Origin: K189A clade bacterium
Lineage (GTDB): Bacteria > Pseudomonadota > Gammaproteobacteria > Pseudomonadales > Azotimanducaceae
Direction of reading: 5' to 3'
Assembly (NCBI GenBank): GCA_009886205.1
Contig: QXZU01000007.1
Location: 1-38,102, forward strand
Length of the DNA stretch: 38,102 nt
The notes beneath the pieces are model-generated. The model made no database searches. It worked only from the letters and a program-made list of their open reading frames with translations, and had not been told where the DNA came from. Within the stretch, counting starts at the first letter, position 1. Each line of letters starts with the position of its first letter. Below are positions 9,147 through 28,889 of the stretch, in pieces. Both the position numbers and the translations under genes were made by a program.

Positions 9147-12100
9147 ATGCTTCGATTTGCTCTGTTCATGTTACTCACCTTACACAGCGTAGCTTCAGTC
9201 GGCGCAACAGCCGAGCCACCCGCAGAAATGGCTAAATGGAAAGACTGGATATTAGCAGGCTTCTCGGAACACACCTGCCCGTACTTTGGTCAAACAGCGG
9301 ACTCTAAAAAATGCGCGTGGCCTGGCACTCTAAAACTCAAGATTGACGGCAAAGGCGCGGAATTCACCCAAACTTGGACGGTCTTTGATGACAGCTGGCT
9401 AAGTTTAGTGGGCAACGAACAACTATGGCCCGAAGGAGTCAATGTTTATCTGAACAAAAAACTACAACACCCACCGGCTGTGCTTTCACACAACGGCCGC
9501 CCGAGAGTACGCCTAGAGTCTGGTCAATATGAAGTGACTGGCCGCTTGCGTTGGCTCAAGCAACCGCAATCACTGCCTATTCCAAATGACAGCGCCATTA
9601 TTCAGCTAGACATTAACGGCAAACGAGTTGCGCTACCAGATTTTGACGAATCTGGACGTCTGTGGCTGCAACGTACGGAAAACCCAAGCGCACAGGGCAC
9701 GGATAAAGGCGACGATGTGAAAGTGGAGGTATTTCGTCGCATAACCGACGCGGTACCACTGCGCAGCAAGAGCATTTTAAAAATTGCCGTTTCGGGCAAG
9801 CCTCGAGAAATATTGCTAGGTAGGTTCCTTCCACAGGACAGTGAAATTTTGTCTCTAGTTTCGCCCCTGCCCGCCCGCATAGAGGAAAACGGTGATCTAT
9901 TGATACAGGCCCGCTCCGGTACATGGGAGCTTGAACTCAATGCGCGCTACAAGAACAACCCAACCTCTCTGCGCATGAACCGGTCTACTGAAAATTGGCC
10001 CGAGCAGGAAACTTGGACTTTTAAATCTGCTAACGCATTGAGGGGGGTCAAAATTGGCGGAGTGCAAACACTCGACCCCAGCCAAATTGACCTGCCTAGA
10101 CCATGGCACGAATTGCCCACCTACCTTGTCACTAACGACAGCAACTTTCGTATAGAAGAACAATACCGGGGTGACACGTCCAATAGCTCTAATCACATTA
10201 GTCTACAGCGCAATATATTTCTCGACTTCGACGGCGCTGGCGCCACCATAAGCGACCATCTCAGCGGCACAATGGACAGAACACCGCGACTTTCAGCACA
10301 ACCCACATTAGATCTTGGCAGAGCATCACTGCGCGGCGAACCCCAGCTCATTACCCAACTTGAAGGTGAAAGCGGCAAGGGTGTCGAAATTCGCGACACC
10401 AATCTCAATCTCGACACCGTCAGCCGCTTGGAGAATATTCAACAACTCACAGCCACGGGCTGGCAGCATAATATCGCCAATCTTTCGGCAGACCTTGAAT
10501 TGCCGCCGGGGTGGAGACTTTGGCACGTGTCGGGGCCAGACGAGGTTACGACCTCTTGGTTAAGTCGGTGGACTCTTTGGGACATTTTTTTGTGCCTGCT
10601 GATTTCAGGCGCAATTTTTAAACTCATGGGCGTGCGCTGGGCAATTCTGTCCTTAGCAGCTTTTGCACTGAACTACCATGAAAGCAATATGCCCCTCATA
10701 AGTTGGCTAATTCTAATTTTCGCCCTACCACTTTTACGCGTATTACCTACAGGCAGGGTGCGCTCGGCTATAAATGTCGCGGCTTATCTCACTCTGTTTG
10801 TCCTAGCACTCGGCACCCTGGTGTTCGCGGTGCAACAAATCCGCACAAGCCTTTACCCACAGCTGGAACATCGCAATACCACGGCAACGTTAGGCTTCAA
10901 AGATACGCAGCGACTCATCGGCAGAGATAGACAAGAAAACACAAGTGAGGTCGATACGTCGAACGAACTGGATGGCGCTAACTCTATGCATGCCCCCCTT
11001 GAGGCGGAGATCGTCTCTCGCTCTATAACCCAAAAAAGTCGCTCTAAACCCCCTCTACGAAAGCGTTATGAGCCTGACTCCTACACACAAACCGGACCGG
11101 GCCAAGCGATCTGGCGATGGAATACTGTCAATTTGAACTGGTCGGGCCCTGTAACTAAAGACGCGCCGTTGACGATCTACCTAACCGGCCCTTTAAGTAC
11201 TAGTGTGCTACTCATGTTACAAACCCTCATGGTAGTTTTGCTTGGCATAGGGTTCGCCTTGGCGCTGATAAAAACCTCAAAACCAAACTTGGGGTCGGGC
11301 AACGACAAGTGGAGAAACGCCACCACTAACAGTGTCAATGTATTGCTAATCAGTTTTATGGCTTACGCAGCATTTCCTGCAGATGCCGCAGCTAACACAG
11401 GGTTCCCGCCAGAATACCTGATGAACACTTGGCAGCAACGTTTGCTGGAGGACCCAGAATGCCTGCCTAGCTGTGTGTCCATCGACAGCACAAGGGTGCA
11501 CGTTGAAGACGACCGATTGACAATCACCATGCTTGTCAGCAGCGGTATTCATATCGGTCTACCCATTAATCAAGATGAATCTTGGCAGCTTCAGAGCGTG
11601 TTAGTAGACAACAAAGATAGCCAGCAATTTTCTTTAGTGGATAAGAAAATTTGGCTCAACATTCCTAAAGGCAAAAGCGAGGTACAAATGCAGGCGTTGA
11701 TCGTCGGCGACACCGTGAATGTGTCTTTTCTGCTGAACCCCCATAACGTTGCTCTAAACGCTGCTGGCTGGGATGCCTTCGGACTGCAAAATTACACCCT
11801 ACCCAACAGGACCCTTGAGCTACAAAAACGAGAAAAGACTGAGCAAAGTGAATTACTAGTAGCGGCGCCTGTAGCGCCTTTTGTTACTGTTAGAAGAAAT
11901 CTGGAAATAGACCTCGATTGGCAGCTTACCACTCATGTATGCCGAGTGGCTCCAGAACAAGGTGGATTTACCGTCAAAATTCCACTGATTAAAAACGAAA
12001 TCGTTATCTCAGAGGATATCGAGGTTATAGAAGAGGGTGACGAGCGTTACCTCGTTATAGGGTTCAAGCCTGGACAGACAGCATTCACATGGAACTCAAT

Positions 12101-13241
12101 ATTTGAACCGACAGAAACTATTAGCTTGATAGCGGCAACACATCCATGGCTCACGGAAACATGGCACTTTTCAAACACACCCCGCTGGCACGCAAAGTTC
12201 AGTGGCTTAACACCTGTTAAAGAAGCGCCCCTTAGGTTCGCCAAAACCACTTGGCATCCATGGCCAGAGGAGCAAGTGTCCATTAGCCTAACCAAGCCGA
12301 ATGCTACCAAAGGGCCCTCCACAACCATTGAGGCTGTGGAGGTGATCCACAGTCCTGGCGAGCGATCATCTGATGTCACCCTTAAGCTCCAGCTACTATC
12401 GAGTGTAGGTGGCGATTTTGTTGTGCCTGCACCACCGGACGCAACACTAAAACATATACGAATAGATGGTCGAGCAGTCACGGTTAAAGACGAGAACAAA
12501 AAAATTGTTTTGCCACTCCGCCCTGGGTTGCAGAGCGCTGAAATCAATTGGATCGTCGATGGCGGCGCAACATTTAGAACATCTACTTTGGGCCTTGAAC
12601 TTCCGCTCAAGCCTAACAACATTAGCTTGTCGCTAAACCTTCCTCAGTCTCGCTGGCCGCTATATGTGGGCGGCCCGAACCTCGGCCCAGCAATGCTTTT
12701 ATGGGGTGTACTCATTGTGATTCTTGGCTTAGCGATTGGCCTTGGCTATGTTGTAAAACGACAGAATCTGAGCATTCCAGTGAATACCACTCAGTGGGTG
12801 TTGCTGGCCCTAGGCATGAGCTCCATTAGTATTCTGAGTATTGTGCCGGTGGTTTTATGGTTTTTTGCCATGGAGGCGAGATCTAGACTCAAAACGATCG
12901 GAAAACGTAGCTTCAATCTATTACAGGTGGGATTAGCCGTCTTAACAGTGGTAGCAATATACAGCCTATTTTTAACCATACCCGCAAGCCTTTTGTCAGC
13001 CCCGGACATGCAAGTAGTCGGCAACGGTTCTAGTAACTATTACTATCACTGGTTCCAAGATCGCACTGTCGACAGCCTGCCACAAGGTTACGTGATCAGC
13101 GTATCAATATGGGTATACCGGCTGAGCATGCTGCTGTGGTCACTTTGGCTAGTATTCGCACTGTTTAAGTGGGCGGCTTGGAGTTGGCAGTGTTTTAGCC
13201 AAGACAAAATTTGGCAGGCAGATGAGCCAAAAACAGAATAG
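9147..13241 (+). CDS. Large inner-membrane protein of unknown function, apparently internally duplicated
   Basis: 1364 aa; I cannot assign a function. A Sec-type signal peptide opens it (MLRFALFMLLTL...VGA). A large, beta-rich, probably periplasmic region follows (about 22-470), then a cluster of about four TM segments (about 478-566), a polar linker (about 570-675) with the pattern QTGPGQAIWRW and WSGPV, a TM segment (about 680-710) and a second leader-like hydrophobic stretch (about 730-748, ending FPADAAA). A second beta-rich region (about 750-1175) and four more TM segments (about 1180-1345) complete it. Both halves open alike after their hydrophobic stretch: PPAEMAKWKDW plus a Cys pair, and PPEYLMNTWQQ plus CLPSC. 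Both contain an ETWxF motif and end with a Leu-Pro...GP pattern before the TM cluster, which suggests an ancient duplication. No catalytic motif was recognised. It stands alone between two genes that are adjacent in Pseudomonas; base composition resembles its neighbours, so recent transfer is not evident. Confidence 0.85.
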   Translation: MLRFALFMLLTLHSVASVGATAEPPAEMAKWKDWILAGFSEHTCPYFGQTADSKKCAWPGTLKLKIDGKGAEFTQTWTVFDDSWLSLVGNEQLWPEGVNVYLNKKLQHPPAVLSHNGRPRVRLESGQYEVTGRLRWLKQPQSLPIPNDSAIIQLDINGKRVALPDFDESGRLWLQRTENPSAQGTDKGDDVKVEVFRRITDAVPLRSKSILKIAVSGKPREILLGRFLPQDSEILSLVSPLPARIEENGDLLIQARSGTWELELNARYKNNPTSLRMNRSTENWPEQETWTFKSANALRGVKIGGVQTLDPSQIDLPRPWHELPTYLVTNDSNFRIEEQYRGDTSNSSNHISLQRNIFLDFDGAGATISDHLSGTMDRTPRLSAQPTLDLGRASLRGEPQLITQLEGESGKGVEIRDTNLNLDTVSRLENIQQLTATGWQHNIANLSADLELPPGWRLWHVSGPDEVTTSWLSRWTLWDIFLCLLISGAIFKLMGVRWAILSLAAFALNYHESNMPLISWLILIFALPLLRVLPTGRVRSAINVAAYLTLFVLALGTLVFAVQQIRTSLYPQLEHRNTTATLGFKDTQRLIGRDRQENTSEVDTSNELDGANSMHAPLEAEIVSRSITQKSRSKPPLRKRYEPDSYTQTGPGQAIWRWNTVNLNWSGPVTKDAPLTIYLTGPLSTSVLLMLQTLMVVLLGIGFALALIKTSKPNLGSGNDKWRNATTNSVNVLLISFMAYAAFPADAAANTGFPPEYLMNTWQQRLLEDPECLPSCVSIDSTRVHVEDDRLTITMLVSSGIHIGLPINQDESWQLQSVLVDNKDSQQFSLVDKKIWLNIPKGKSEVQMQALIVGDTVNVSFLLNPHNVALNAAGWDAFGLQNYTLPNRTLELQKREKTEQSELLVAAPVAPFVTVRRNLEIDLDWQLTTHVCRVAPEQGGFTVKIPLIKNEIVISEDIEVIEEGDERYLVIGFKPGQTAFTWNSIFEPTETISLIAATHPWLTETWHFSNTPRWHAKFSGLTPVKEAPLRFAKTTWHPWPEEQVSISLTKPNATKGPSTTIEAVEVIHSPGERSSDVTLKLQLLSSVGGDFVVPAPPDATLKHIRIDGRAVTVKDENKKIVLPLRPGLQSAEINWIVDGGATFRTSTLGLELPLKPNNISLSLNLPQSRWPLYVGGPNLGPAMLLWGVLIVILGLAIGLGYVVKRQNLSIPVNTTQWVLLALGMSSISILSIVPVVLWFFAMEARSRLKTIGKRSFNLLQVGLAVLTVVAIYSLFLTIPASLLSAPDMQVVGNGSSNYYYHWFQDRTVDSLPQGYVISVSIWVYRLSMLLWSLWLVFALFKWAAWSWQCFSQDKIWQADEPKTE

Positions 13242-28489: not shown

Positions 28490-28526
28490 AAGGCACCGCA
28501 GACGCCTAACAGACTAGAATAAAATT

Positions 28527-28889
<363 letters not shown>

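Follow-up and report, generated by a model that had tools for sequence, protein, structure and literature searches.

What is the large membrane protein encoded between a cell-wall gene and dciA in a K189A clade bacterium, and what might it do? The locus lies in a 38,102-nucleotide stretch of DNA (contig QXZU01000007.1, assembly GCA_009886205.1, Azotimanducaceae), referred to here as the window. The coding sequence occupies positions 9147–13241 of the plus strand and is open throughout its 1364 codons. A relative from the same genus (G005) carries a protein 87% identical over the full length, and the ratio of nonsynonymous to synonymous substitution rates (dN/dS) for this pair is 0.15, which, together with the intact homologues, indicates that the 1364-aa protein is kept by purifying selection. 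A first-pass annotation made from the letters of the DNA had proposed that the protein consists of two similarly built halves that arose by an ancient tandem duplication and fusion. Our analysis supports this proposal, and we put the probability of a two-lobed protein derived by duplication of one ancestral unit at roughly 0.9.

The evidence for duplication comes mainly from profile comparison. We built profiles of each half from 45 full-length proteins, that is, the window protein and 44 homologues that are 26–40% identical to it. The hhalign comparison of half 1 with half 2 gave a score of 155 (E 9.4e-18) across 504 colinear columns, whereas 16 controls, either column-reversed or block-shuffled, scored between 17 and 38. 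At the level of single domains, none of 140 controls reached the score of 60 for A1 and A2 or of 38 for B1 and B2, while the C1–C2 score of 30 was equalled by one control. Domains A2 and C2 also matched each other, with a score of 51 that exceeded all 140 controls, and the A1–C1 comparison was borderline in the same manner as C1–C2. These A–C profile matches suggest that domains A and C of each half are probably duplicates as well. The transmembrane (TM) parts of the two halves gave no significant sequence alignment (score 20, with 11 of the 140 controls as high). Despite this weak likeness in sequence, the predicted TM helices correspond between the halves. We compared the AlphaFold2 models of the two halves through their element lists and shared PDB matches, and both show a near-identical series of three beta-domains, four TM helices, a membrane-proximal hairpin and one further TM helix. 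Thus, the half-by-half structure prediction and profile self-comparison that the first-pass annotation had recommended agree that the two halves have related folds. A search of the organism's own genome revealed no paralogue of a single half.

The first half begins with a hydrophobic leader at residues 1–21 that has a cleavage-like A-T-A site. On the basis of sequence and a hydropathy peak, we assign a predicted N-terminal signal peptide to residues 1–22 (9147–9212), with A-T-A ahead of the presumed cleavage site. The modelled region of half 1 (residues 22–712, 9210–11282) had a predicted local distance difference test score (pLDDT) of 86.5. It contains beta-domain A1 (residues 54–178, 9306–9680), beta-domain B1 (residues 186–325, 9702–10121) with the ETWTF motif at residues 288–292 (10008–10022), and beta-domain C1 (residues 326–470, 10122–10556), which ends in LPPGW...GPD. 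TM helices 1–4 follow at residues 471–568 (10557–10850). A variable loop, predicted to be disordered and periplasmic, spans residues 577–645 (10875–11081), with pLDDT below 50 over most of its length. It leads into the well conserved membrane-proximal hairpin (residues 646–684, 11082–11198), which is modelled as two strands, and then into TM5 (residues 685–711, 11199–11279). The hairpin contains QTGPGQAIWRW (648–658) and WSGPV (665–669), which had been read as a linker between the halves; they belong to half 1 and correspond to the segment PDMQVVGNGS...HWFQD of half 2.

The second half (residues 726–1364, 11322–13238; pLDDT 89.1) opens with a hydrophobic segment at residues 730–748. The invariant CLPSC at residues 772–776 (11460–11474) supplies the cysteine pair of this half, and its equivalent in half 1 is C44 and C56. 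Beta-domains A2 (residues 779–905, 11481–11861), B2 (residues 906–1030, 11862–12236, with ETWHF at 1004–1008, 12156–12170) and C2 (residues 1031–1183, 12237–12695, ending in RWPLYVGGPNLGPA) are followed by TM helices 1–4 (residues 1184–1283, 12696–12995). The hairpin of this half (residues 1284–1320, 12996–13106) is among the most conserved segments of the protein, and TM5 (residues 1321–1351, 13107–13199) is also highly conserved. The open reading frame, the leader, the internal hydrophobic segment, the cysteine pairs and the ETWxF, QTGPGQAIWRW and WSGPV motifs listed in the first-pass annotation were all found.

The charge distribution around the TM helices defines the likely orientation of the protein. 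The loops predicted to be cytoplasmic, at residues 489–497, 528–542, 708–730, 1200–1214 and 1240–1256, contain 2–5 Lys or Arg residues and 0–1 Asp or Glu residues. These positive-inside loops and the signal peptide strongly support a periplasmic location for both lobes and both hairpins. The picture of two lobes in the periplasm, carried on a membrane base, therefore holds, in agreement with the profile comparison and the structure models. Across the 45 homologues, C44, C56, C772, C776, E288, W290, W1006 and W656 belong to the positions that are invariant or nearly so, and the invariant residues are chiefly Trp, Gly, Pro and Cys. Because of this composition, and because no Pfam or NCBIfam family matched, we regard a two-lobed inner-membrane protein of non-enzymatic appearance as strongly supported, in line with the earlier remark that no enzyme motif is visible.

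Searches of Pfam, NCBIfam, PHROG, PADLOC and PDB sequences returned no family match (PDB hits were at chance level at most), so the protein belongs to no characterised family that these sequence searches could recognise. Genome searches covered the phylum of the window, Pseudomonadota. Within the order, 32 of 295 genomes carried a homologue; the counts were 58 of 370 for the class (Gammaproteobacteria), 22 of 398 for the phylum and 121 of 198 for one family, f60. The homologues are nearly all full-length, nearly always single-copy and about 1320–1500 aa long. One locus (L162) that appeared to encode a 1940-aa protein was rejected as an artefact of an upstream frame. Short family fragments in short open frames (G123:C23:24054-24281 and G836:C164:6299-7227) are possibly further decaying copies.

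The genes that surround the family differ in nearly every lineage. Among 88 loci, neighbours were held in common only by close relatives, and 129 adjacent proteins matched 121 Pfam families, none of which was seen more than three times. A survey for constant companions, also suggested by the first-pass annotation, thus found no shared partner, and the adjacency to M23, dciA, lpxC and ftsZ in the window is uninformative on function because neighbours differ across these loci. Taken together, a widespread, single-copy, context-free and undescribed family of Pseudomonadota is strongly supported. Upstream regions gave no common promoter motif; GTTCAAA was the sole enriched word and was contributed mainly by one family whose members share upstream sequence, and known regulator boxes were not enriched upstream of the gene. 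Five loci of family f29 (L074, L075, L076, L077 and L078) share the sequence GAACCGGTTCAAA, which has a short palindrome just past the stop of the upstream gene and may be an operator or simply flanking DNA that has been conserved. Elsewhere in the window, an RNase P RNA (RF00010, 333.5 bits) is located at 28524–28888 on the minus strand.

The history of the gene can be read in part from its close relatives. In the genus of the window, the gene lies between M23 and dciA in two genomes (G000 and G005), and most of the genus lacks it at this junction. In a third genome (G020, L007:1471-1716), the same junction holds an 81-aa remnant in which the first ~60 codons are fused to the last ~12, a structure indicating that the remnant is the product of a large internal deletion. 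A fourth (G016, L183) has an empty site, with flanks ~84% identical that match the window up to 8864 and from 13250, and ~350 unrelated bases between them. The gene had been called a lineage-specific insertion; this description fits the insertion point, which is particular to a small clade, but not the family itself, which is widespread. In an 84-sequence tree assessed by inspection, copies from the same family mostly cluster, while those of f1, f17, f29 and f183 fall into separate groups, a pattern suggestive of long vertical inheritance accompanied by losses and some transfer. Among plasmid records, we found one match, a full-length homologue (WP_015452075.1, L180:7730-11824) on the 737-kb plasmid pAZKH of Azoarcus sp. 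KH32C. This plasmid is typed mobilizable, and a downstream isoaspartyl peptidase gene overlaps the end of the homologue by 4 bases. Phage records, viral contigs, PHROGs and PADLOC gave no convincing match that would point to a phage or defence origin.

To what known proteins is the fold comparable? For both halves, the top Foldseek match in the PDB was Ost1/ribophorin I (E 2.7e-6 and 2.2e-9, probability 1.00), a subunit of oligosaccharyltransferase in eukaryotes and archaea. The modelled protein appears to resemble ribophorin I (PF04597) in placing beta-domains in series, on the luminal or periplasmic side, upon a membrane anchor, and in having no catalytic residues. Yeast Ost1 has two similar luminal beta-domains (PMC7226087), whereas each half described here has three, and each half has five TM helices where ribophorin I has one; the bacterial protein further differs by its tandem duplication, the lack of a sequence match and the lack of an STT3 partner. 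The next confident matches were the N-terminal domains of M1 aminopeptidases (ERAP2, LTA4H and bacterial M1 peptidases), which align locally over ~155–190 columns at 4–10 Å with probability 1.00, one of them over 157 columns at 4.3 Å. Unlike these enzymes, our protein lacks a zinc peptidase domain, and Pfam gave no match to it.

A second lead comes from the loop that separates TM4 from the hairpin in half 1, where conservation is lower than anywhere else in the periplasmic region. In Xanthomonas campestris, the consensus of the TonB box is tLDXVXV (PMC1790865). The corresponding pattern L..V.V was present in 31 of 59 distinct f60 loops, as compared with 1.6 in shuffles and 5.4 in windows drawn at random from these proteins; the loops (L235–L304) are related by descent and do not represent 59 independent events. 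Two further patterns, composed after examples had been seen, gave 40 of 59 for L..[VI].V (shuffles 2.2, random windows 6.5) and 37 of 59 for L..[VI].V[TSA][GA] (shuffles 0.2, random windows 0.5). Most of the f60 motifs begin 25–28 residues ahead of the hairpin. Scattered loops of other families, L117 (f80), L169 (f261) and L095 (f70), have a comparable motif about as far from the hairpin, and similar motifs are also present in L103 and L083. In one homologue from a complete genome (G217, L105:7136-11461, the same protein as L224), the loop contains the greater part of a Plug domain (PF07715, E 1.4e-12, positions 42–107 of 107), with LEEVVVTGAR ahead of it. The family therefore shares with TonB-dependent receptors a TonB-box-like motif in f60 and a few other loops and, in one homologue, a plug, whereas its models have alpha-helical TM segments, as befits an inner-membrane protein, and no 22-strand beta-barrel of the outer-membrane type.

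From these features, we tentatively propose that the protein is a non-enzymatic periplasmic docking or holding platform, with a probability of about 0.4. The six beta-domains and the two conserved hairpins would hold a secreted or membrane-bound client close to the membrane, much as ribophorin I is supposed to do beside STT3. In half 1, the flexible loop that follows TM4 would recruit a variable periplasmic partner, for which TonB is the candidate in f60. Several observations weigh against this reading. The distribution of the gene is not matched by any of three candidate partner systems: STT3 (PF02516) was found in 2 of the 40 gene-bearing genomes and 0 of 40 without the gene, exosortase in 22 of 40 as compared with 13 of 40, and rhombosortase above cut-off in 14 of 40 as compared with 20 of 40, and the genome of the window contains neither STT3 nor exosortase. 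The predicted template-modelling scores (pTM) of the half models, 0.57 and 0.60, leave the arrangement of the domains uncertain. Whole-chain superposition on Ost1 was poor (TM-score 0.16–0.29, root-mean-square deviation 11–26 Å), unrelated many-domain beta proteins also scored (integrins at 5e-6, a viral-library protein at 3.3e-7), and PF04597 had 0 matches at E ≤10 in the organism's own genome and was unlisted in library scans of the 45 homologues by halves. Because of these low scores, the matches to unrelated proteins, the failure of PF04597 and the lack of co-occurrence with STT3, we claim the ribophorin I likeness of the models at the domain level alone and not as family membership. The loop of the window protein itself has no TonB-box-like motif and no plug domain, and outside f60 the strict pattern was present in 3 of 92 loops, one of them far from the usual position.

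The TonB-box-like segment permits two other explanations. TonB might grip the f60 branch of the family by the TonB box that this branch carries, which would make it a true Ton-motor client seated in the inner rather than the outer membrane. TonB-box segments bind TonB and bear pulling force (PMC9022066). The near-fixed distance of the motif from the hairpin within a hypervariable loop, its recurrence in f261, f70 and f80, and the plug-bearing homologue are all consistent with such a client. On the other hand, most of the family lacks the motif, a motif match is not equal to binding, and TonB might be titrated instead of used. We know of no inner-membrane TonB client, and consider this explanation unlikely. 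Alternatively, segment and plug might be inert relics of fusion with TonB-dependent receptor genes; some bacteria have large numbers of such receptors (PMC1790865), which would make recombination easy, and the plug was found in one homologue only. This account, also improbable in our view, has to contend with the motif keeping its distance to the hairpin while the flanks have diverged past alignment.

The remaining alternatives are less likely still. A cell-wall or division factor acting with the M23 peptidase, DciA, LpxC and FtsZ, as the position between M23 and dciA, described in the first-pass annotation as beside cell-wall genes, could suggest, is very improbable given the lack of conserved neighbours and the many gene-free junctions within the genus. 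We see as slim a chance for a component of protein sorting by exosortase/PEP-CTERM or rhombosortase/GlyGly-CTERM, systems that are likewise patchy: exosortase is somewhat commoner with the gene, but this gap could follow genome size, rhombosortase shows the opposite trend, and the organism itself lacks exosortase. A role as accessory subunit of an oligosaccharyltransferase, in which the protein would serve as a bacterial ribophorin I beside STT3/PglB, is scarcely credible despite Ost1 being the best fold match of both halves, since STT3 and PF04597 are nearly or wholly missing as described, a published survey reported OST1 in eukaryotes, TACK and Asgard archaea only (PMC11417166), and an earlier hidden Markov model search found no promising prokaryotic candidates for non-catalytic subunits (PMC4973528).

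These results place a single-copy, 1364-aa membrane protein, present in about one-sixth of the sampled gammaproteobacterial genomes and in most of those sampled from f60, outside every family model in the searched libraries. If its ribophorin-like architecture reflects true homology, a type of component reported only from eukaryotes and archaea would extend to bacteria. A working TonB box would likewise give the Ton motor a client in the inner membrane.

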